Source: Gemmataceae bacterium
GTDB taxonomy: Bacteria; Planctomycetota; Planctomycetia; Gemmatales; Gemmataceae
Assembly: GCA_901538445.1 (NCBI GenBank)
Contig: LR594584.1
Location: forward strand, 248,001 to 312,000
DNA length: 64,000 bases
Direction of reading: 5' to 3'
Below, piece after piece: positions 3,100 to 35,122 of this stretch (position 1 is the first letter of the stretch; the number at the start of each line of letters is the position of its first letter). The notes under the pieces were generated by a model that was given only the letters and a program-made list of their open reading frames with translations, was not told where the DNA came from and did not search any database. The translations under genes were made by a program, and so were the position numbers.

Positions 3100-3179
3100 C
3101 GTCGCTCTGCCCACTGGGTGTTGAGGATCGGTCTTCGGTCGAGGGTCACTCGGAGCCAGGACGGCTCCCGCCCGGGAAC

Positions 3180-3220
3180 GCGGCCGGCGGGCGGGGTCTC
3201 GTGGCCCGCCCGCCGGCCGC
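3180..3220 (-). terminator. GC-rich hairpin downstream of the cyclase-like repeat gene
   Basis: Sixteen-base perfect arms (gcggccggcgggcggg and its complement) enclose a 9-base loop, beginning 10 bp past the stop of the gene ending at 3230. There is no clear U-tract, so it may be a stability hairpin rather than an intrinsic terminator. Confidence 0.55.
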
Positions 3221-3229
3221 CGCGGGTCG

Positions 3230-4402
3230 CTATCGCTGGTAGATGGGGAGGATGCCCTTCTCCAGTTGGAGGATCGTCAGGTTCACGGACGTGGCGAACA
3301 CCGGGCCGACGTACCCGCCGGTCCACCCGCCGGTGCCCTTGTCCTGCTGGTCGATGATGTACGGGTACATCGCTTCCGTGTACTTGGTCCACGTCAGCCA
3401 CGTGGCCTTCTCCTCCTTGTCGAACATCTGGCCGTACCGGTCGTCGCCGAGGACGTACACGAACTGGGCGTAGTAGTAGCTCTGGTACTCGTCGTGGGCG
3501 ATCCGGCCCTTGGCGACCGGGATGTTGTCGCGGCAGAACTTGATCCACTTCTTGGCCAGTTCGCCCTTGTACTGGCCGGCGCTGAACGAGCACGCGACGG
3601 CGGCCGCGGTCAGCGGCGGGCGGCCCTGGCCCTTCTGCGCGTTGCCGTTGCCGCCGGCCCACGAGTAGATCACCCCGCCGTCCGGGGTCGTGCAGGCCTC
3701 CAGGTAGTCGGTGGCCTTCTGGATCACCTCCTTGGGCACCTGGATCCCGGCGTTGCGGGCCGCGCGGAGCGCCTGGAGCTGCGTGATCGTGACCGAGCCC
3801 TCGTCGAAGTTGTTGCCGTCGGCGGCGCTCACGTAGCCCCACCCGCCGACGTCCACTTCCTTGCCCTCGGGCTTGCGGTACTTCTTGAGCGTCTGGGCCT
3901 TACCGATGAACTCGACGGCCTTCTTGAGGCACTTCTCGAGCTTCTCCCGCTGGTCCTTGTCCTCCTCCTCGCCGTAGGCGCTGGCGAGGAACATGGTCCC
4001 GAACCCGTGGCCGTACATGTACCGCGTGGCCTCGGTCGGGTTGCGGACGTCGCCGAGGAGCCCGTTGGGCTGCTGCCGGTTCGGGGCCAGGAACCACTCG
4101 ACGGCCTTCTTCACCTGGTCGGAGTACTTCCCCTCCTTGAGGGTGCTGCCCTCCATCAGGAAGCACATGCCGGCGAGGGCGGTCATGCTCGTGGGGTACT
4201 GGCCGCCCTGGGCCTCCCAGTGGCCGTCCTGTGCCTGGGTCTTCTTCAGGTACTCGAGCCCCTTCTCGATCGACTCCTCCACCCGCTTCTTCGTGTCGTC
4301 CTTCTTCTCCTGGGCATGGACCACGGGTGCGAACGCGGGAACGGCGGCGACCGCGCCAACGGCAGCGACGGCAGCGGTCGCGAACAGCCAGTTGATACGC
4401 AT
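3230..4402 (-). CDS. secreted prenyltransferase/squalene-cyclase-like repeat protein
   Basis: The 390-residue product begins with a signal peptide (about residues 1-30, ending VVHAQ) and then shows the repeated alpha/alpha-barrel pattern of terpene cyclase/prenyltransferase folds: [54 protein letters not shown] (split here), [19 protein letters not shown]. No DxDD or other cyclase catalytic motif is visible, so the fold is likely used as a non-enzymatic scaffold, as in many planctomycete secreted proteins. It lies between the large PQQ protein and the MoxR gene on the same strand, 115-130 bp upstream of moxR. The cellular role is unknown. Confidence 0.85.
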
Positions 4403-4516
4403 GGTGCGCTCCGCGGTGTTCCCCGCTCACGGGGGGGGTGGGGATGGGTGAAAGACGAGCCACGGGTGGGAAATTAACACCCACAATCCGGTAGGGCCGG
4501 GGCGGCAAGAACTGTG

Positions 4517-21710: not shown

Positions 21711-21834
21711 CCGCCGCGGGCCGCCCGCCGGCGGCGCGCGGGTGAATCGCACCTCCGCCCGTTCGCATCTCGGAAGCCGCCGGGCTATAATCCCGGCACC
21801 GCTGCCCGCCACCTCACCCACCGGAGTTCACGCC

Positions 21835-22770
21835 ATGCGATCACGCACCGGCCCCGCCCTGCTCTTCGCCGCCGCACTCGGCGGGGCCGTCGCCCTGTCC
21901 GGGCCGCCCCAGTGGGCCGCCGGCCAAGAGAAGAAGGACGAGCCGAAGCCCCCGGCGGGCAAGGTCGATCCCGCGAAGCAGAAGGCGGCCGCGGTCGCCA
22001 CGCTCAAGAAGGCCAACCTCGACAGGGCCGCCGTCGTCGAGACCGAGCACTTCCTGATCGCGAGTTCGTGGCCCGAGGAGAAGGCCCGGGCGCTCGGCGC
22101 GGTGCTGGAGAAGATCGTCCCGGTCGCCCGCAAGGCGCTCCAGTTCGAGGAGAAGGACGAGGCGTGGCGCGGCAAGCTGACCGTGTTCGTGCTGCCCGAG
22201 ACCCGCGAGTTCAAGTCGTTCGTGCGGGGCGTCGTCCAGCGCGACCCCGCGGGCGTGTACACCGACGTCCGGGCGGACGACCCGTTCGTCGTGGACCCGG
22301 TCGATACGCCCGCGAAGGCGACCGACGCGGAGCAGTACGCCGCCGTGGCCGCGAACGTCGCCAACGCCTACCTCCGCTCCCGCGGCAGCACCGCGAGCCT
22401 CCCGGACTGGGTGCTCAACGGGTTCGGCCGGGTCACGGCGGCGCGCGCCGCGGGCACGGGCTCGGCGGCGTACACGAAGTACCGCACGGCGGCCCGGCTC
22501 GCGGTCCTCGGCCCCAAGGGCGGCAAGCCCGCGGCCCTCGGCGAGTTGTGGGGCGACACCAAGCCGGCCAACGGCGACGTGCTCGCGGCGAGCCTCGTCG
22601 AGTACATGGCCTACGGCCCCGGCGCGGAGAACTTCGTGAAGCTGGTGTTCGCGTACCGGCCGAACGAGAACGGCGACTCGCCCGCGACCCCGCAGGCGCT
22701 GGAGGCCGCCGGGTGGAAGGACACCGCGGCTCTGGAAGCGGCGTGGCGGAAGTGGGCCGCGGGAAAGTGA
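21835..22770 (+). CDS. secreted protein with peptidase-MA-like C-terminus lacking HExxH
   Basis: The ATG at 21835 starts a 311-residue protein with a signal peptide (to about residue 30, AAGQ). The body has VETEHFLIASSWPEEKARALGAVLEKI, then AAVAANVANAYLRSRG and LPDWVLNGFGRVTAARAAG, and ends FVKLVFAYRPNENGDS... This order of blocks resembles gluzincin (peptidase MA-like) domains, but the helix that should carry HExxH reads VAANVANAYL and the usual W-x-x-E-G segment is WVLNGFG. I therefore infer a non-catalytic relative. It is a stand-alone gene followed by a 34-bp-arm inverted repeat. Confidence 0.7.
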   Translation: MRSRTGPALLFAAALGGAVALSGPPQWAAGQEKKDEPKPPAGKVDPAKQKAAAVATLKKANLDRAAVVETEHFLIASSWPEEKARALGAVLEKIVPVARKALQFEEKDEAWRGKLTVFVLPETREFKSFVRGVVQRDPAGVYTDVRADDPFVVDPVDTPAKATDAEQYAAVAANVANAYLRSRGSTASLPDWVLNGFGRVTAARAAGTGSAAYTKYRTAARLAVLGPKGGKPAALGELWGDTKPANGDVLAASLVEYMAYGPGAENFVKLVFAYRPNENGDSPATPQALEAAGWKDTAALEAAWRKWAAGK

Positions 22771-22777
22771 GCGGGGG

Positions 22778-22852
22778 TGAACGGGTGAGCGGGTGAAGGG
22801 GTGACGAAGACAACACCGGTCTTCGTCACCCCTTCACCCGCTCACCCGTTCA
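22778..22852. terminator. 34-bp perfect inverted repeat between convergent genes
   Basis: Perfect arms tgaacgggtgagcgggtgaa... (22778-22811) and the complement (22819-22852) surround a 7-base loop; the convergent sixA-like gene ends at 22858. The ascending arm is a run of related gggtga units. It is likely a bidirectional terminator. Confidence 0.8.
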
Positions 22853-22857
22853 ATTGA

Positions 22858-23370
22858 TCAGCACCACTCGGGCGTGACGAGCCACTCGAGGACGCCGCAC
22901 CCGCGGGCGAGGTCGCCCTTGAGGTGGACGCACGCGGCCCCGCCCTTCGCGAACCGGACCGTTCCCGTGGCCGCGCCCACGATCCACTCCAGGTACGCGC
23001 CAAGGTCCGGCATGTGGCCGACGGCGGCGACCGCCTTCTCCCCGCGGGACGGGAGCCGGGGGCCGGCCGCCGGCAGGTCCGCGAGGCGGGCCGTGAGCTT
23101 CGCGGCCCGCAGGCTCCCGATCGCCAGTTCGTCGCACGTCACCGGCCGGGTGCCCGGGTGCCAGACCGAGAGTAGTTCCGCCGCGGTCTGGTGCGCCCGG
23201 ACGAGCGGGCTGGCGGCGACCGTGTCGATCACGACCCCGCGGCGGGCGAACGCGGCGGCCAGGGCCCGGGACTGCTCGGCCCCCTTCGCGGTCAGCGGGC
23301 GGTCGAAGTCGCGCGTGAGGGTGCCCCCGAGGGGCTCCGCTTCCGCGTGACGGATCAGGTACAGCCACAT
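22858..23370 (-). CDS. sixA: SixA-like phosphohistidine phosphatase (histidine phosphatase family)
   Basis: The ATG at 23370 gives 170 residues starting MWLYLIRHAEAEP, the RHG catalytic motif (R7-H8) of the histidine phosphatase superfamily. Further blocks are RPLTAKGAEQSRALAAAF, VAASPLVRAHQTA, and VGHMPDLGAYLEWI, which supplies the second catalytic histidine. Length and motif spacing fit SixA, which removes phosphate from phosphohistidine domains. The longer upstream frame lacks family similarity. It is divergent from typA (278-bp gap) and convergent with the preceding secreted-protein gene. The substrate in this organism is not shown. Confidence 0.9.
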   Translation of the reverse strand: MWLYLIRHAEAEPLGGTLTRDFDRPLTAKGAEQSRALAAAFARRGVVIDTVAASPLVRAHQTAAELLSVWHPGTRPVTCDELAIGSLRAAKLTARLADLPAAGPRLPSRGEKAVAAVGHMPDLGAYLEWIVGAATGTVRFAKGGAACVHLKGDLARGCGVLEWLVTPEWC

Positions 23371-23648
23371 GGTTCGTTCCCGCGGGCGAGGTGTGGGATC
23401 GAGTATCGGTCGGGCGATCGGGGGCACGTCAGGACCAGCCCGGTCCCCACACCGGTCCTTCATTTTTGTCCGGCGGCCCGTATTCGCGGCCCGGGTGCCC
23501 TTCCGGTTCCGGACCCCAAGTTCTAGATTAGAAGAAGCGCTTGCCCCCTCCACGAAATTGGCGGGGGCTTTCGCGCTTTGCGTCCCGCCCCGTGGGTGGG
23601 GCGCAACCCTCTCCGGGGGCAGTCCCGAGGACCATTGCGAAGCGATCC

Positions 23649-25478
23649 ATGAAGCGGAACGATATTCGGAACGTCGCCGTCATCGCGCACGTCGACCACG
23701 GCAAGACCACCCTCGTGGACCAGATGCTCCGCCAGTCGGGCCTGTTCCGGTCGGAGGAACTCGACAAGCTCGTCGGGGGCCAGCACGGCCTCATCATGGA
23801 CTCCAACGACCAGGAGCGCGAGCGCGGCATCACGATCCTCGCCAAGAACTGCGGCATCCGCATCGGCGACGTGAAGGTGAACCTCATCGACACCCCGGGC
23901 CACGCCGACTTCGGCGGCGAGGTCGAGCGGATCCTCAAGATGGCCGACGGGGCGTTCGTCCTCGTGGACTCGGCCGAGGGGCCGCTCCCGCAGACCCGGT
24001 TCGTTCTCCGCAAGGCGTTCGCCGCCGGGCTCAAGCCCATCGTCATCATCAACAAGATCGACCGCCCCGACGCCCGGATCGACGACGTCCACTCGTTCAT
24101 GTTCGACCTGTTCATCGAACTCGGCGCGGACGACGAAACGGCCAACTTCCCGATCATCTACGCCAGCGGCCGCAACGGCGTCGCGACCACCGACATGAAG
24201 GTCGAGCCCAAGGACCTGCGGCCGCTGTTCGACGCCATCCTGGAGAAGGTGCCGGCCCCGGACGTGGACGAGACCGCCCCGCTGCAGATGCAGGTCGCCG
24301 CCCTGCAGTACAGCGAGTTCGTCGGCAAGATCGCCATCGGCAAGGTGTACGCCGGGAAGATCAAGAAGAACCAGAAGGTCACCGTGGTCCGCCAGACCGA
24401 CGGCACCACGTTCCCTGACGTCGTCGTGCAGCTCCGCGAGTTCGACCGCCTCGCCCAGCGCGAGGTCGACGAGATCCGCGCCGGAGACATCTGCGCCGTG
24501 GTCGGGCTCGACGACGCCGAGATCGGCGACACCATCTGCGACTTCGAGAAGCCCGCGGCCCTGCCCCCGCTCACCATCGACGAGCCGACCCTCGACATGG
24601 TGTTCAAGGTGAACGACTCGCCGTTCGCCGGGCAGGACGGCAAGCCGATGACGAGCCGGGAGCTGCGAGACCGGCTCAACAAGGAGCTGCACCACAACGT
24701 CGCCCTCCGGGTGCGGCCCGGCGAGCGCGAGAGCGAGTTCTTCGTGTCCGGCCGCGGGCTGCTGCACCTCGGCGTGCTGCTCGAGACGATCCGCCGCGAG
24801 GGCGGCGAGGTCGCCGTGGGCAAGCCCAAGGTCATCATGAAGGAGATCAACGGCACCAAGCACGAGCCGTTCGAGCACCTCGTGGTCGAGGTGCCGACCG
24901 AGCACCACAGCTCCGTGATCCGCCTCGTGCTGGAGCGGCAGGGCGACTTCCAGAAGATGGAGAACCACGGGACCACGACCCAACTGGAGTTCTACATCCC
25001 GGCCCGCGGGCTCATCGGGCTCCGGACCCAGGTGCTGACCGCGACGCAGGGCACGGCGATCATGCACCACAACTTCCACGAGTACCGGCCCGCCAAGGCC
25101 GCGATGCCGGGCCGCGCCAACGGCGTGTACATCTCCAAGGAAACCGGCAAGGTGACCGCGTACGCGACCGAGGACCTGAGCGGCGTGCTGTTCGTGTCCC
25201 CGCCCGACGCGGTGTACGAGGGGCAGATCGTCGGCGAGCAGCCCCGCGACAACGACATGGTCGTGAACTGCACCAAGATGAAGCCGCTGACCAACATGCG
25301 GGCGTCCGGCAGCGACAAGGCCGCGGTCCTGAAGCCGCCGCGCCAGTACTCGCTCGAAGGGGCGCTGGAGTACATCGAGGACGACGAACTCGTGGAGATC
25401 ACCCCCACGTCGGTCCGGATGCGGAAGATGTACCTGAAGGAGAGCGACCGCAAGAAGCTCGGCCGCTCGAAGGGGTGA
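23649..25478 (+). CDS. typA: ribosome-associated GTPase TypA/BipA
   Basis: The ATG at 23649 gives 609 residues, the usual TypA length. G1 is AHVDHGKT (13-20), followed by DSNDQERERGITILAK (switch I), DTPGHADFGGEVER (G3) and NKIDRPDA (G4). The EF-G-like domains and the family-specific C-terminus (PARGLIGLRTQVLTATQGTA, TNMRASGSDKA) are complete. TypA is a translational GTPase acting on the ribosome, important for 50S assembly and stress or low-temperature growth. Monocistronic here, with a hairpin at 25629 as the likely terminator. Confidence 0.97.
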   Translation: MKRNDIRNVAVIAHVDHGKTTLVDQMLRQSGLFRSEELDKLVGGQHGLIMDSNDQERERGITILAKNCGIRIGDVKVNLIDTPGHADFGGEVERILKMADGAFVLVDSAEGPLPQTRFVLRKAFAAGLKPIVIINKIDRPDARIDDVHSFMFDLFIELGADDETANFPIIYASGRNGVATTDMKVEPKDLRPLFDAILEKVPAPDVDETAPLQMQVAALQYSEFVGKIAIGKVYAGKIKKNQKVTVVRQTDGTTFPDVVVQLREFDRLAQREVDEIRAGDICAVVGLDDAEIGDTICDFEKPAALPPLTIDEPTLDMVFKVNDSPFAGQDGKPMTSRELRDRLNKELHHNVALRVRPGERESEFFVSGRGLLHLGVLLETIRREGGEVAVGKPKVIMKEINGTKHEPFEHLVVEVPTEHHSSVIRLVLERQGDFQKMENHGTTTQLEFYIPARGLIGLRTQVLTATQGTAIMHHNFHEYRPAKAAMPGRANGVYISKETGKVTAYATEDLSGVLFVSPPDAVYEGQIVGEQPRDNDMVVNCTKMKPLTNMRASGSDKAAVLKPPRQYSLEGALEYIEDDELVEITPTSVRMRKMYLKESDRKKLGRSKG

Positions 25479-25508
25479 CGACGCACCGCAAGTCGGGTTG
25501 CTGGATTC

Positions 25509-25580
25509 CTGTAGCCGGCCTCTGTGAGGCCGGTGCCTGGGGGACTCCCCGAGGCCCGGCCTCACAGAGGCCGGCTACAG
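25509..25580. repeat. inverted repeat of the ctgtagccggcctctgtgag type
   Basis: CTGTAGCCGGCCTCTGTGAG... and its complement form 25-bp arms around a 22-bp loop, 30 bp past typA. A related, diverged copy is at 51632-51704, indicating a dispersed palindromic (REP-like) family. Confidence 0.75.
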
Positions 25581-25628
25581 AACAGCCACGAACCAATCGA
25601 ACATGGTATCGGATTCTCGCCGCGAAGC

Positions 25629-25660
25629 GAACGGCCGGGCCACACGTGGCCCGGCCGTTC
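25629..25660. terminator. perfect GC hairpin between typA and a small convergent gene
   Basis: gaacggccgggccac and its complement form a 15-bp stem with a tiny loop, followed on the plus strand by tcgtt. It lies between convergent typA and the small gene ending at 25680. Confidence 0.7.
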
Positions 25661-25679
25661 TCGTTGGCCCCGCACGCGG

Positions 25680-25883
25680 CTAGCGCCCCGGCCGCCCGAG
25701 GTGCCGCAGGTTGACGGTGACGCCCAGGGACTTCGGGCGGAGCAACTGGACCGGGATGACCGCCTCGAACTGCTCGTTCCCGACCGTGACCACGCAGACG
25801 ACGGCGTCGTCCATGCCCGTCCGCTTCACCCGGACCGCCGCACCCTTCACGAGCGCCACGTCCTGCCCTTCCGTCAGCTCCAT
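25680..25883 (-). CDS. small hypothetical protein (67 aa)
   Basis: I place the start at the ATG at 25883 (MELTEGQDVALVKGAAVRVKR) because the frame before it looks random. The product is beta-rich (VCVVTVGNEQFEAVIPVQLLRPKSLG) and could form a small SH3- or KOW-like barrel. No signal peptide, no cysteine cluster. I do not recognise a family. Confidence 0.5.
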   Translation of the reverse strand: MELTEGQDVALVKGAAVRVKRTGMDDAVVCVVTVGNEQFEAVIPVQLLRPKSLGVTVNLRHLGRPGR

Positions 25884-26034
25884 GCCGGCCTCCCTGCCAG
25901 AGATGCGGGCGAGCCGTGGTCTATAGTCCCTCGCATGGCGGCAGAAAAGAGAAAACAAGGTACAGTCAGCAGATTGCCGAACCGGAGTGTCCGCTTGTCG
26001 GACAAGGTGGCGACTCGGAGTGCGGGCGGCCCGG

Positions 26035-26256
26035 TCACGCGAGCGGGACGACGGCTGTGGTGGCGAGCGACTGGAGGAGACGGGAAAGGTACTCGCGGAC
26101 CTCCAACTACATCCGATCGACCTCGGACAGATATCCCGTGGACGACAGCCGGTGATTGGCCGGGTTCCTTTCCACCCGCCGGAGGTGAACCAACTGAAGT
26201 TGGAACCGCCGGATGCGGCCCAGTGTCGCGTGGAATTCGGTGTCGGCGGCGGTCAT
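26035..26256 (-). pseudogene. small ORF interrupted by an in-frame TAG
   Basis: From the ATG at 26256 a 49-codon frame reads MTAADTEFHATLGRIRRFQL... to DRM, where a TAG (26107-26109) stops it. The same frame then continues LEVREYLSRLLQSLA to a second stop at 26035. The helical, charged character is continuous across the TAG, so either the gene carries a nonsense mutation or only the 49-residue form is made. I have a weak recollection of similar small planctomycete proteins, not verified. No other gene is seen in the 25884-26283 gap. Confidence 0.4.
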
Positions 26257-26283
26257 GGTGCCCCCGAAAGAGCCGCATCCGAA

Positions 26284-26742
26284 TCAAGGTGCGTGAGCGT
26301 CTCTCGGCGTCCCTCGCGACAACTTCTCAACGATGCTCAGCAAGTCGCGCGTTCCCATCCCGATTGATTCTGCCAGCGCCTCAGGGAGTCGCGATGCGAC
26401 CCAAACAGTCTCGACCGGAAGAGAGAACACGTACCAATTTACGACCCTGTCGCCGACGCTGACCCGCAAATCATCAAAGGCGGAATCAAACTCGTTCGGA
26501 ATCAGTTCGACGGCCGTCGAGGAGAACAACACCGACGCTCGAAGTTTGACGCGGGCGGTGCGAACGTCATCAGCCGCGATCTTCTGTCCGGGTCGCAGCG
26601 GCACGAAGCCGTCCAAGATCACACGGTCTGGAGTGTGGACGTTACCCACGATCATGATTCGGCCGTACCGGTGCCCTGCGGCTTCCGCGAAGAGTTCGTA
26701 TGGAATTGCCAGAGCCACCGCCAGCACGCACGCCGCGACCAT
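26284..26742 (-). CDS. stand-alone POTRA-domain exported protein
   Basis: The start is set by a full AGGAGG six bases upstream of the ATG at 26742, giving MVAACVLAVALAIPYELFAEAAG, a clean signal peptide; the GTG at 26814 and ATGs at 26766 and 26748 are less favoured. Residues about 25-90 of the 152-residue product read YGRIMIVGNVHTPDRVIL, LRPGQKIAADDVRTARVKL and VLF, the strand-helix-helix-strand pattern of a POTRA domain as found at the N-terminus of BamA/TamA/FtsQ-type proteins. No barrel follows. The gene lies 82 bp downstream of the peptidase-Omp85 fusion, which has a barrel but no POTRA. I infer that the two act as a split Omp85 system. Confidence 0.75.
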   Translation of the reverse strand: MVAACVLAVALAIPYELFAEAAGHRYGRIMIVGNVHTPDRVILDGFVPLRPGQKIAADDVRTARVKLRASVLFSSTAVELIPNEFDSAFDDLRVSVGDRVVNWYVFSLPVETVWVASRLPEALAESIGMGTRDLLSIVEKLSRGTPRDAHAP

Positions 26743-26823
26743 GATCATCCTCCTTGACGAGCCCATTTCGGGCGGCCGAGAAGGACCACGATACTCGAAT
26801 AGCTCGCAACTCACCAGTCGTGG

Positions 26824-29800
26824 TCAGAAGGCGTGCTGGATGCCGAACCACCACTGCCAGGGGCTCGCGGCGTTGATCGTCTTGGCCACGTCGAACCGGA
26901 GCGTCGCACGCTCGATGAAGCTGAACACCGCCACCTCCACCCGCAGCCCGGCCCCCAGCGCGTAGGCCACGCCACCGACGCTCCGGCCGTCGGCGTACAC
27001 CGAGCCGATGTCCGTGAACGCCGCCAGCCAGACGCTGCGCGCCCCGATCGTGTGGTCGAGCACGTCCCACGTCACGTCCTGCTTGACCGGGATGCGGAGT
27101 TCGGCGTTCGCGACCCACAGCGAGTTCCCCTGGCGCTCGGCGAAGTCGAACCCGCGGAACAGCGTGCCGCCGCCCAGGGCGTAGAACTGGCCGTAGTCGG
27201 GCCACGCGCCGAGCGTCACCACCCGGCCCGCGACCCGGACGTGCTGGAGCGGGCCGAGGCAGTCGGGCAGCCCGTGAACGGCCGCGAGTTCCAGCCGGCC
27301 CTGGCCCATCCCCTTCCACGTGGTGAACTCGGCCCCGCCGGCGGCCGCCATCGCGTCCACCCACACCCCGCACTCCGGGTTCCAGTACGGCGTGTACAGG
27401 TTCAGCCGGTAGTGGTACCCGGCCATCGCGAGCCGCTGGTACCGCTCGCCCTCCGTGGACCGCGGGAACGGGAGGAAGTTGTCCTGGTACGTCGCGAACA
27501 GGTCCTGGTACATGAGCGGGGGCAGGTACAGGCTCGACCCCGGCTTCATTACGTCGCGGTAGTACGCGACGGCCCGCTGCGGCCCGCCCGACCCGTCCTG
27601 GTTCCCGAACGGCCCGGCGATCCGGCGCTCGTAGTTCAACCCGAGTTCGTAGTGGTCGCCGAGCTTGGTGGCGCTGGCCCCGAAGACGATGTCGCGGTAG
27701 TCGGTGCGGTACGCGGCGTAGGCGTCCGCCTTCCAGTGCTGCGGCTTGTGCGCGCCGACCCGAAGGCCGAGCATCGTCGAGCGGGTGTACCACGGGTCCT
27801 GGTACGACGCGCCCCACGCCCACGGCCCGGCGATCAGGTTCACGCGGTCGTAGTCCGACGTCAGGTCGGCGTCGTCGAGGCTGGTGAGCAGCGGGGTCAC
27901 CTTGGTGCGGACCGGCGGCTTCCAGCGGTTGTCGTGCGGGTTCGCGTCGAGGATCACGTGGTCCGGGTCGGCCGCGACGTGCTCGGGCTCGCCCGCGAGT
28001 TCCACGTCCACCCGCCACTTCTTCTCGCCGACCGGGGTGACGGTCGCGCCGATCTCGGGGAGCGACAGCGGCCTGTCACCGCCGACCGGGACGCGCACGA
28101 TCTCCCCGCCGGGGAGCGTGAACCCGACCGTCGTGGGCTCGGTAAACTCGCCCTTCTGCGCGACGATCGCGGACGCGGTGTACTTCGGACCGTCGCTCCG
28201 GTACTGGTTGGCGAAGCGGCTCACCGCGTTCACCCGCGGGCCGTTCTGCTCGCGAACCGTCACCTCCTCGACCTTCCAGTCGGTGAGCCCCTTGCCGTAG
28301 ATCCACCGGTCGAAGAAGTCGGTCCAGTCGCGGCCGGTGTACGCTTCGAGTTCGCGCTTGTAGTCGGCGAGTTGCAGCACTCGCCACCCGTACTTCGCGA
28401 CGACCCCGCGGGTGAAGTCGAGGAACGCGGCCTCGCCCATCTGGTTCTCGATCATCCCGATCGCCATCGACCCGCGGTCGTAGGCACCCGCGAACAGGTT
28501 GAACAAGTGCCCGTACTTTGGCAGGTCCTGCGCCGCGGGGTTCATCTCCTGGTTGCGGATCGTGTAGTACGTGCCGCCGAACCGGTAGTTCTCCCGGTTG
28601 ATGTTCGGGAGCCACTGGAGCCCCTGCGGCCACGCGAGCATCGGGTTGTTCTTGCCGCGCTTCTTGTCGAGCAGCTTGTGCGTGAAGAACGCGGCCGACG
28701 CCTCGTCCATGAACGGCTCGGCGTACCCGTTGGTGCCGACGTAGTTGTACCACCACTGGTGCGAGGTCTCGTGCGACACGAGGTACTCGACGTACCCCCG
28801 GGCGAGGTGCGGCATCCCGAACACCCGCTCGTCGATCATCACCAGCCCGGCGCACTCGTTGCCGTTCCACCCGAAGTACGACTCGGCCACGGTAAACGAC
28901 GAGTACGGGAAGTTCCCGAACCACGTCGAGTACACCGGGATCGCCTCGCCGACGATCTTGAGGATCTCGCGGGCGTACCACTCGTGCTCCGCGAACGCGA
29001 TGCACCGCAGATTGACCGGCGTGCCGTCGGGGAGGTTGATGTCGGTCGAGTACTCCCTGTACCGCGTCGAGCACAGGACCGGGAAGTCGCGGCCGACGAA
29101 CGGGTCGAGTTCGACCCGCTTGCGGCCGCCGTCGAGCTTCGCCTCGGACTTGATCCGCGGCGAAGTGGCGAGCACCTCCCCCTCGGGGAGCGTGACCGTG
29201 GCCCGCCACACCCCGGCCTCGTTGAAGAACGGCTGGTGCCACGGGATGAACGGCATCGGCCGCCACCCGGTGTCGTCGCAGAACGCGAGCACCGGGAAGG
29301 CGTTCGTCAGGAACGTCACGTCCTTCCAGTGCCCGAGCCGGCCCTGCTTGTTCGGCAGGTAGAACTCGCACGTGAGTTCGACGACGAGCGTTTCGCCCGG
29401 CGCGAGCGCCTCCGGCAGTGGGAACCGGAACGTCGTGGGGTTCGTGTCGTCGTACTCGTAGTTCAGATTGTGGTCGTGCGTCTTCTTCCCGAGTGCGGTC
29501 AACTTCGCGCCGGTGATGACACCGGCCCGGCCCCCGCGGTCGATGCCGATCGACGGCTGGAGCCGGAGCATCTCCAGGGTCTTGGCGAGGGCGAGGTAGT
29601 CGCGCCGCGGAACCTGGTAGTTGGGGTAAAAGTTGAACGCGAGGCTGTTGAGCGGCGCTTTAGTATGGTTCGTCCAGGTCACGCGCTGGTGGAGCGTGGC
29701 GCGGTGGGCGGCGACGTCGATGTTGAGATCGAGATCGTACTTCGGGAGGTGGGCGGGCGGTTCGGCGGCGCGGGCCTGACCGGTGGCGAGCAGCGCCAGA

Positions 29801-29853
29801 AGGGCGAGCAATCGGCCGCAACGCGGGAACGCAAGCTGTCGGTAACCGAGCAC
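26824..29853 (-). CDS. M1-type zinc metallopeptidase fused to a C-terminal Omp85-like beta-barrel
   Basis: The GTG at 29853 gives a 1009-residue protein with a signal peptide (cleaved near GQARA, about residue 29). The M1 aminopeptidase part has an N-terminal beta domain and the catalytic HETSH at 361-365 with E384, exactly the HExxH-x18-E zinc site, then a helical region to about 540. From roughly residue 640 the sequence becomes beta-barrel-like, with Omp85 hallmarks: GGGTLFRGFDF (loop-6 R900-G-F), a FTDIG strand, a LRFDVAKT strand and a C-terminal ...WWFGIQHAF ending in Phe. M1 enzymes cleave N-terminal residues; Omp85 barrels insert or translocate proteins at the outer membrane. Neighbours: Trm112-like gene upstream, POTRA gene downstream. 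Anchoring the enzyme in the outer membrane is inferred. Confidence 0.88.
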   Translation of the reverse strand: MLGYRQLAFPRCGRLLALLALLATGQARAAEPPAHLPKYDLDLNIDVAAHRATLHQRVTWTNHTKAPLNSLAFNFYPNYQVPRRDYLALAKTLEMLRLQPSIGIDRGGRAGVITGAKLTALGKKTHDHNLNYEYDDTNPTTFRFPLPEALAPGETLVVELTCEFYLPNKQGRLGHWKDVTFLTNAFPVLAFCDDTGWRPMPFIPWHQPFFNEAGVWRATVTLPEGEVLATSPRIKSEAKLDGGRKRVELDPFVGRDFPVLCSTRYREYSTDINLPDGTPVNLRCIAFAEHEWYAREILKIVGEAIPVYSTWFGNFPYSSFTVAESYFGWNGNECAGLVMIDERVFGMPHLARGYVEYLVSHETSHQWWYNYVGTNGYAEPFMDEASAAFFTHKLLDKKRGKNNPMLAWPQGLQWLPNINRENYRFGGTYYTIRNQEMNPAAQDLPKYGHLFNLFAGAYDRGSMAIGMIENQMGEAAFLDFTRGVVAKYGWRVLQLADYKRELEAYTGRDWTDFFDRWIYGKGLTDWKVEEVTVREQNGPRVNAVSRFANQYRSDGPKYTASAIVAQKGEFTEPTTVGFTLPGGEIVRVPVGGDRPLSLPEIGATVTPVGEKKWRVDVELAGEPEHVAADPDHVILDANPHDNRWKPPVRTKVTPLLTSLDDADLTSDYDRVNLIAGPWAWGASYQDPWYTRSTMLGLRVGAHKPQHWKADAYAAYRTDYRDIVFGASATKLGDHYELGLNYERRIAGPFGNQDGSGGPQRAVAYYRDVMKPGSSLYLPPLMYQDLFATYQDNFLPFPRSTEGERYQRLAMAGYHYRLNLYTPYWNPECGVWVDAMAAAGGAEFTTWKGMGQGRLELAAVHGLPDCLGPLQHVRVAGRVVTLGAWPDYGQFYALGGGTLFRGFDFAERQGNSLWVANAELRIPVKQDVTWDVLDHTIGARSVWLAAFTDIGSVYADGRSVGGVAYALGAGLRVEVAVFSFIERATLRFDVAKTINAASPWQWWFGIQHAF

Positions 29854-29917
29854 GCGGCAGCCCCCTGAGTAGGTCGAGAGCCGCGGGTGATAGCGTAAGG
29901 GGGGGAGCGACGCCAGG

Positions 29918-30148
29918 CTACTTTCGGCTCTTTTGGCGGTTCGCGGCCCGCTGACACGGGAGCTGGCTCACCTCGCGGTTGCCCTCGGGCATTTCGACCT
30001 CATTGGGCACGAGGACCGGGAGGCCGAGTTTCACGGGGAAGTGGCACGAGCAGCGGGAGCAGAGCAGCCCCTGATCGTCGCGCGTGAGGGTGGCCTCTCG
30101 CTTCGGATCGAGCGGGCAGCGGAGCTGTGCGAGGAAGGCGTCGTCCAT
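29918..30148 (-). CDS. Trm112 family protein
   Basis: The ATG at 30148 starts a 76-residue protein (MDDAFLAQLRCPLDPKREATL) with cysteines at 11, 30, 33 and 35 and the family ending FPVKLGLPVLVPNE. Trm112/YcaR-type proteins are small zinc-ribbon-like partners of methyltransferases and related enzymes. Cysteine spacing is slightly unusual. It is 64 bp upstream of the peptidase-Omp85 gene on the same strand and 60 bp beyond the rRNA terminator, so it has its own promoter. Confidence 0.82.
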   Translation of the reverse strand: MDDAFLAQLRCPLDPKREATLTRDDQGLLCSRCSCHFPVKLGLPVLVPNEVEMPEGNREVSQLPCQRAANRQKSRK

Positions 30149-30209
30149 CGTGGCGAGGATTGGTTGTGGGACGCGACTGATTGCTGGTAAGGTTGGCCTG
30201 AAAAGCACG

Positions 30210-30241
30210 GCACCCCGGGACACGAACGTGTCCCGGGGTGC
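30210..30241 (-). terminator. rRNA operon terminator
   Basis: A perfect 14-bp stem (gcaccccgggacac, loop gaac on the plus strand) is followed on the minus strand by cgtgcttttc. It lies 102 bp past the 16S 3' end and just outside the 16S processing stem. Confidence 0.85.
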
Positions 30242-30342: not shown

Positions 30343-31837
<1,495 letters not shown>

Positions 31838-32010
31838 GTTTTGATAACCACCGGCCGAAGCCGACGGCTCTTTTCAAGTGTTGATCCGCCGTTGTTCGCG
31901 TTCCTCAAATTCTCGACCCGCCGAACAGAACCCGACCGGCCGCTTCCGCGGCCCGCCAGCCTCCGCCCGACGTGAGCCGGGGTCCGATTCACGCTCCAAC
32001 AGCGTAAACC

Positions 32011-32051
32011 CTCCCCTCTTAAGGCTATCTGCTACCAACTTGTCAAGGATC
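32011..32051 (-). promoter_or_regulatory. 16S leader: boxA-like site plus processing-stem arm
   Basis: On the minus strand gatccttgacaa (32051-32040) resembles boxA (consensus tgctctttaaca) and runs into aagttggtagcagatagcc, which pairs with the 16S trailer at 30259-30277. The ttgaca could be mistaken for a -35 box, but a matching -10 is lacking and the same motif heads the 23S leader. Confidence 0.75.
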
Positions 32052-32147
32052 AAAAGCCGCCGCCCTCAGTAGAGGACGACCCACTCAGAGAGTGATCGGG
32101 CGACCGCCGCTCACCGTGAGGCAGAGGCGGTCCGAAGCAAACTAAAA

Positions 32148-32254
32148 GCCGGCGATACCTACTCTCGCGCTGGACGCACTACCATCGGCCCCAACAGTTT
32201 CACGGCCGTGTTCGGAATGGGAACGGGTGTTTCCAGTTGGGTGTGGTCACCGGC
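32148..32254 (-). rRNA. rrf: 5S ribosomal RNA
   Basis: The minus strand reads gccggtgaccacacccaact..., cattccgaacacggccgtga, gcgagagtaggtatcgccggc. The conserved ccgaacac loop and the closing gccgg/ccggc helix identify 5S, about 107 nt. It lies between 23S (3' end near 32359) and 16S, with about 310 bp separating it from 16S. Confidence 0.92.
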
Positions 32255-32310
32255 AAGTCGCGTGGCGTCCCGGCCGGCCCGTGTGGCGGGTCGGCGGGGT
32301 TGCCGTGTAT

Positions 32311-32336
32311 CTTGGCAACTTGATGAACACGAAGTC
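32311..32336 (-). other. 23S rRNA trailer arm of processing stem
   Basis: cttggcaacttgatgaacac (32311-32330, then gaagtc) complements the 23S leader at 35349-35374 in the transcript with few mismatches, forming the 23S precursor stem. It starts about 25 bp past the mature 3' end. Confidence 0.8.
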
Positions 32337-32358
32337 GACACGAGCGAGAAGGGGAACA

Positions 32359-35122
<2,764 letters not shown>

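Follow-up and report, generated by a model that had tools for sequence, protein, structure and literature searches.

Organization of the locus and of the fusion protein

The window, that is the whole stretch of DNA analysed here, comprises 64,000 nucleotides from a Gemmataceae bacterium (assembly GCA_901538445.1, contig LR594584.1, positions 248,001 to 312,000). It carries an open reading frame (ORF) with a GTG start that encodes a protein of 1009 amino acids (aa), in which an M1 zinc peptidase (about residues 30-650) is fused to a C-terminal region (about residues 650-1009) that is likely to have an Omp85-type barrel fold. Both halves passed the Pfam cut-offs: Peptidase_M1 (PF01433) matched residues 319-517 with 40.9 bits (cut-off 27.7; E 2.2e-10) and Omp85 (PF01103) matched residues 884-994 with 28.3 bits (cut-off 24; E 1.6e-6). 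An earlier, sequence-only reading of the window had placed a complete zinc site and Omp85 landmarks in this one ORF and had named an Omp85 profile as the check on the residues up to 1009; the two domain matches, together with the conservation of the landmarks described below, bear this out. No patatin domain was found in the fusion by Pfam at E values up to 1. The features of the locus are listed in Table 1.

The stretch HETSHQWWYNYVGTNGYAEPFMDE supplies H361, E362, H365 and E384 of the HExxH-x18-E zinc site. A profile of the protein family matched glutamyl aminopeptidase (E 7.9e-15) and puromycin-sensitive aminopeptidase (E 8.9e-15) in the PDB, while the PDB search with the single fusion protein returned two weak M1 matches only (E 0.65 and 0.67). 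Residues 30-651 could be aligned with a barrel-less M1 protein of 802 residues from the same phylum (G136) at a probability of 100% (E 2.6e-43), with VDPERILVLDVDSVNNTW of the latter falling on ADPDHVILDANPHDNRW of the fusion immediately before the barrel. As this alignment runs to residue 651 and ends at the barrel, it leaves no space for a POTRA domain, and the fusion reads as a complete three-domain M1 enzyme with a barrel added at its C-terminal end. The helical domain IV is the usual fourth domain of M1 aminopeptidases. Aminopeptidase N, ERAP and puromycin-sensitive aminopeptidase share with the fusion the HExxH-x18-E site, the catalytic Tyr, the exopeptidase Glu and the domain order I-II-III; the fusion differs from them in having the barrel in place of domain IV, in reading FGWNGNE for GxMEN and in the existence of some second copies without the site.

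A profile of the barrel part matched TamA of Escherichia coli (probability 88%, E 3e-6), a profile of BamA from the Gemmata group (81%, E 1.3e-5) and PDB chain 9ccg, a POTRA domain-containing protein (E 2.3e-4), and PF01103 matched 34 of 56 barrels of the family at E 0.01. The loop-6 RG(F/Y) motif is in register in all three alignments (GGDRSIRGY in TamA, GGIRSFRGF in BamA) and the FTDIG strand of the fusion is aligned with FVDSG of TamA and FCDHG of BamA; the terminal residue is Phe (F1009). The fusion is thus like BamA and TamA in its GG..xRG(F/Y) motif, FxDxG-like strand, GxGxR and last strand, all in register, but unlike them it has no POTRA and the first half of its barrel is not recognisably related. 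By eye, about 16 strands were counted, eight before and eight after about residue 815, and the barrel may thus have 16 strands.

Pfam searches with the whole chain and with residues 522-649 alone found no POTRA domain in the fusion. A POTRA hidden between the M1 part and the barrel was considered and ruled out, since residues 522-649 had no Pfam match at E values up to 1 and align with the end of the barrel-less M1 protein. Omp85 members without POTRA have been described ('noNterm'), and the missing domain therefore bars the fusion only from the POTRA-bearing core of the superfamily. The genome has two Omp85 matches, namely the fusion and a separate BamA in which four POTRA stretches scored.

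Table 1. Features of the fusion locus, in window positions.
Feature	Position	Strand	Basis
M1 peptidase / Omp85-barrel fusion gene, 1009 aa	26824..29853	-	Pfam M1 and Omp85 above cut-off; class-wide relatives
Putative Sec-type signal peptide, about residues 1-29 (RLLALLALLATGQARA-AEPP)	29767..29853	-	read from sequence: hydrophobic stretch, then A-x-A
M1 N-terminal beta domain, about 31-255	29089..29763	-	profile alignment to barrel-less M1 over 30-651; inner boundary inferred
M1 catalytic domain, about 256-530	28264..29088	-	PF01433 at 319-517; M1 aminopeptidases in the PDB, best profile E 7.9e-15
FGWNGNE motif (327-333), at the place of M1 exopeptidase GxMEN/GGMEY	28855..28875	-	E333 in 90/93 copies; aligned with GAGGMEY of barrel-less M1
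HExxH-x18-E zinc site, H361/E362/H365/E384	28702..28773	-	complete in 88/93 copies
Immunoglobulin (Ig)-like beta domain of M1, about 531-645	27919..28263	-	aligned with end of barrel-less M1; fold inferred
Likely Omp85-type barrel without POTRA, 650-1009 and stop	26824..27906	-	PF01103; profile matches to TamA, BamA and PDB 9ccg
Loop-6-type motif LGGGTLFRGF with R900	27148..27177	-	R900 in 92/92 copies reaching the barrel
FTDIG strand motif (946-950), F946/D948/G950	27004..27018	-	D948 and G950 in 92/92, F946 in 91/92
Exported single-POTRA protein, 176 aa (152 aa from internal ATG); judged not part of the system	26284..26814	-	sequence, synteny
1,356-bp stretch holding the POTRA gene, 105 bp in colinear G016	25467..26822		blastn, window against L079

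Distribution and conservation of the two halves

When whole genomes were searched with the fusion protein, 84 of the 95 family genomes, from 36 of 39 genera, had a match, as did 91 of the 102 genomes in the order, from 41 of 44 genera. Among 198 sampled genomes of the class, 75 were matched at E 1e-40 (families f1, f2, f3, f7 and f103), and in about 70 of these the match covered most of the protein's length. One match of at least 850 residues was present in 71 of the 84 family genomes, which rules out a frameshift or assembly artefact joining two genes; in the remainder the matches were shorter or split, several at contig ends. The match in G077 was confined to the M1 part, and the copies of G009 and G007 contain an in-frame stop. 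A profile search of 392 genomes of the phylum matched 219; among the matches listed, those outside the class were M1 stretches, and full-length matches came from the window's own genome, G408 and G445 only. A scan of a species-level genome collection returned 110 relatives, and 78 loci were kept from the best 80 of these, including loci of Limnoglobus roseus, Singulisphaera acidiphila, Aquisphaera insulae and metagenome-assembled genomes titled Fuerstiella.

An alignment of 56 rows was made from the window and 55 of the 78 loci, with 23 truncated, broken or similar loci left out. These rows were picked by the HExxH...E motif, a selection from which L125 (broken by a stop) and L074 (zinc site lost) are absent; zinc-residue counts were therefore taken from 93 distinct copies that were fetched from whole genomes without the motif and of which 92 extend into the barrel, L012 being interrupted by a stop. 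The site is complete in 88 of these copies, the ones that retain H361 and E362; H365 and E384 are each present in 92. Y458, which from the M1 family we take to be the catalytic Tyr, is present in 92 of 93. Of the barrel landmarks, R900, R920, D948 and G950 are invariant in the 92 copies, and L228 alone departs at E918, F946 and F1009, leaving these three conserved in 91; such near-invariance across copies is more than would be expected by chance. Column information in the 56-row alignment averaged 2.77 bits over the catalytic domain, 2.44 over the barrel, 2.38 over the N-terminal domain of the M1 part and 2.03 over its Ig-like domain. Across the 56 sequences, distances between pairs in the M1 part correlated with those in the barrel part at r = 0.90, as for two parts inherited as one unit.

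The zinc site has been lost in five copies (L074, L184, L185, L186 and L193). Four of these are in one genus (G036, G037, G038 and G039) and read QATCH instead of HETCH (H361Q, E362A), while the fifth, from G027, has lost all the zinc ligands together with E333 and Y458; because the two patterns differ, the site was probably lost at least twice. Each of the five genomes also has a copy with an intact site (L190, L191, L073, L192 and L194), and R900, E918, R920, F946, D948, G950 and F1009 are kept in all five dead-site copies. The dead-site copies suggest that a binding or barrel function matters apart from cleavage.

They also bear on the idea of an ordinary M1 peptidase whose barrel is no more than a degenerate membrane anchor, which could be argued from the half of the barrel that has diverged beyond recognition from known Omp85 proteins. 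Retention of all seven barrel landmarks in copies with a dead peptidase is the reverse of what a mere anchor predicts and makes this explanation less likely; moreover, the barrel is conserved to a similar extent as the M1 N-terminal domain. We regard an anchor-only role as improbable.

The neighbouring POTRA gene

A second gene with a GTG start lies 9 bp from the fusion gene on the same strand, and its product has, by reading, a signal-like N-terminus. The sequence-only reading had described the product as an exported single-POTRA protein and proposed that it supplies the POTRA missing from the barrel, forming a split Omp85 system in which the neighbour would serve the barrel in trans; co-conservation of the gene pair had been set beforehand as a test. 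The POTRA profile (PF07244) scored residues 49-93 below its cut-off (E 0.0091, 17.1 bits against 21.3), but we accept the small protein as a POTRA homologue because its residues 49-120 share 43% identity with the last POTRA of the BamA encoded in the same genome, and because three of four stand-alone relatives scanned pass the cut-off (L174, E 1.4e-11; L038, E 1.4e-10; L176, E 3.7e-5), the fourth, L034, falling just below it at 21.2 bits. A profile of the small protein scored this BamA domain at 96 bits and other POTRAs at 15 or less; a PDB search with the small protein gave no match.

The proposed partnership did not survive. When ORFs of 80 aa or longer were searched by profile, none of 91 relative loci had a POTRA ORF beside the fusion, and only the window's own gene scored. 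The 91 loci consist of the 78 from the collection scan and 13 others, some of which re-sample the same contig; among the 89 with a zinc-motif frame, the downstream flank reaches 700 bp or more in 77 and 3 kb or more in 62, and the upstream flank 3 kb or more in 51. The profile itself works, since it finds 14 frames in the POTRA loci (five of them used to build it). Split Omp85 is thus rejected on the lack of co-conservation of the POTRA gene with the fusion.

The spread of the small protein among genomes can be set beside this result. Matches were found in 56 of the 95 family genomes, mostly inside BamA-sized frames, and many of the 84 fusion-bearing genomes have only such a frame or none. Shorter frames, of 167-299 aa, were found in 11 other genomes (G006, G009, G010, G011, G012, G015, G018, G021, G026, G064 and G089). 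In G010, G011, G012 and G026, assemblies of one to three contigs, the frame and the fusion share a contig at a distance of 3.2-3.8 Mb (with two stops in the G026 frame), in G006, G009, G015 and G089 it is on a different contig, and in G018 and G064 it is present and no fusion was found. One hint of linkage comes from G021, where the small protein's best relative and the fusion share a contig, 9.4 kb apart; no blastn match was found between the DNA around the POTRA genes of G021 and of the window, genes included.

Synteny and composition were also compared. Of the two closest relatives, G016 was matched by blastn at window positions 21783-25466 and then 26823-30148, with 105 bp between the two matches against 1,356 bp in the window, and it is this additional stretch that holds the POTRA gene; G019, the other closest relative, had no match to the downstream side of the window in the stretch compared. 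GC content at third codon positions is 0.68 in the POTRA gene and 0.96 in the fusion gene. The POTRA gene looks like a lineage-specific addition, a local newcomer and not a partner. For a split system one can cite the shared strand, the 9-bp spacing, the genuine POTRA homology and the pair in G021; against these stand the 91 loci, the megabase distances, the stretch missing from G016 and the resemblance to the last BamA POTRA, and we give the split system very little credence.

Several observations were made alongside. Beyond the POTRA gene, an ORF of 49 residues (window 26107-26256, reverse strand) is 71% identical to a counterpart in G020 that lies about 43 bp behind the fusion and continues in a longer frame; in the window, this ORF is separated from the fusion by the POTRA gene. 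Exported single-POTRA proteins closest to the last BamA POTRA are scattered in the Gemmataceae (L034, L037, L038, L042, L173-L179 and L182), and several have, by eye, a proline-rich and a coiled-coil-like stretch before the POTRA. In G026 a BamA-sized gene (L180:611-2977) is directly followed by one (3123-4496) for a mini-Omp85 of 457 aa with one POTRA (E 8.2e-9) and a full barrel (Omp85 E 2.6e-44). A palindrome with 34-nucleotide arms (window 25509-25580) lies inside an element of about 120 bp that recurs about a dozen times in the genome and also in other Gemmata-group genomes, and looks like a dispersed repeat of the repetitive extragenic palindromic type.

Other surroundings of the fusion gene

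When the ORFs of the window and of the 91 loci were all compared with one another, the clusters were mainly those of the fusion and its shadow frames and no conserved operon partner emerged, with only one cluster annotated, so that a partner could be missed. Upstream, a Trm112-like ORF of 101 aa (window 29918-30223, reverse strand; below the Pfam cut-off) belongs to a cluster found in 18 of 92 ORF sets. Further upstream, rRNA genes occupy window positions 30343-35121 on the reverse strand in the order 23S (35121-32361), 5S (32254-32147) and 16S (31837-30343), instead of 16S-23S-5S.

Proposed function

We favour, with rather better than even confidence, a reading in which the fusion is an outer-membrane-anchored zinc aminopeptidase, with a periplasmic M1 enzyme that sits on a POTRA-less Omp85-type barrel and trims peptides. 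The Sec signal would export the protein, and the last 360 or so residues would fold as the barrel in the outer membrane. The three-domain M1 part would lie on the periplasmic side, connected to the first barrel strand through a short conserved stretch, and would trim peptides at the inner face of the outer membrane; its substrates may be nutrient peptides or debris of envelope proteins. In some genomes a second copy that has lost the active site and kept the barrel would give the barrel, and perhaps peptide binding, a role of its own.

A number of results weigh against this reading. No Omp85 match at E 0.01 was obtained for 22 of the 56 barrels; only the second barrel half (about residues 815-1009) is alignable with known Omp85 proteins, the first half being unplaced; and an amphipathicity scan, in which 12 strand-like peaks were seen against 16 for BamA, failed to tell the barrel apart from other beta regions. 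On the peptidase side, the exopeptidase motif is altered, its Glu (E333) being mostly kept (90 of 93 copies) and replaced by Gln in two copies with the zinc site kept (G075 and G095), and the loss of the zinc site in five of 93 copies means that catalysis is not the whole function everywhere. Both the aminopeptidase activity and the periplasmic orientation are predictions.

An even-stranded barrel that ends in a C-terminal Phe strand has both its ends in the periplasm. With the M1 part tied closely to the first strand, this would place the enzyme beneath the barrel, on the predicted strand number, and a periplasmic position is likelier than display or export of peptides. A precedent is PlpD, the type case of type Vd secretion: its enzyme domain was formerly taken to be secreted but lies in the periplasm, and the protein forms a dimer, as described in passages of PMC11116518. 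The same system furnishes the opposite model, first proposed for type Vd, in which the barrel takes the enzyme to the cell surface so that it faces outwards; the order of an N-terminal enzyme and a C-terminal Omp85-type barrel is that of type Vd (as set out in part of PMC4104836), and a surface peptidase might suit polymer-feeding bacteria. However, the enzyme domain of PlpD stays in the periplasm, residues 650-679 at the start of the barrel show good conservation (2.6-2.8 bits per column), which is not the pattern of a loose passenger linker, and an M1 part of about 620 residues would need to pass through a barrel that has kept its loop-6 motif. Self-secretion therefore appears unlikely to us. 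PlpD and FplA resemble the fusion in their layout, in being exported and in being a second Omp85 protein beside BamA; they differ in carrying a patatin lipase in place of the M1 peptidase and a POTRA between enzyme and barrel.

Equally unlikely, in our judgement, is a role in envelope quality control, in which an Omp85-type lateral gate and the peptidase would degrade stalled or misfolded outer-membrane proteins, somewhat like BepA. The Omp85 landmarks are invariant or almost so even where the peptidase is dead, which speaks for such a role. M1 enzymes are known to act on peptides rather than on folded proteins, a preference that counts against it, as do the lack of a POTRA in the chain and of any neighbour pointing to assembly (one neighbour cluster being annotated). 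BepA is, like the fusion, a zinc peptidase at the outer membrane, and belongs to the M48 family, with TPR repeats and no barrel. It is a known case of a zinc peptidase acting at the BAM complex (reported in PMC8423444, in the part concerned with it).

A last possibility is a gated peptide conduit with its own M1 enzyme, a one-protein machine that would pass peptides across the outer membrane and trim them, with the dead-site copies as binding or gating subunits. These copies raise its odds, and it would still be a minority view, slightly below the two just discussed. No TonB is recorded for Gemmata and Singulisphaera in the portion of a 2012 survey that concerns them (PMC3422733). If true, the conduit would be a use of the Omp85 fold outside protein assembly or secretion.

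Relation to known systems and significance

PF00149 is presumably the metallophosphoesterase family, and not M1. It is the domain, termed a metalloprotease in the relevant part of PMC4104836, of the 'Metallo' subfamily, one of ten into which Heinz and Lithgow (2014) divided the Omp85/TpsB superfamily; 'noNterm' members have no N-terminal extension. Like the fusion, these two subfamilies have barrels that fall outside the POTRA-bearing core, and one of them also has a metal-enzyme domain at the N-terminus, which in the fusion is M1 instead. In a word-start search, the main text of that paper had no mention of peptidase or planctomyc. Likewise, in a fractionation study of Tuwongella immobilis the passages on BamA, Omp85, peptidase and outer membrane proteins name no such fusion (PMC8567305), and a full-text search of open-licence papers gave, among the matches listed, no paper on an M1-Omp85 fusion, in agreement with the sequence-only reading, to which no such system was known.

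Before PlpD, the Omp85 proteins that had been studied were assemblers or secretors with a POTRA-bearing barrel, according to passages of PMC11116518. A widely conserved member that has no POTRA and bears a peptidase would be a further case of the barrel being reused as an enzyme platform. The dead-site copies, with their barrels kept, make a barrel role apart from catalysis testable. The fusion gene occurs in almost all Gemmatales and in some of the class beyond them, and this conserved fusion, in some genomes beside a dead-peptidase copy, points to an undescribed outer-membrane peptidase that may offer a handle on planctomycete cell biology.

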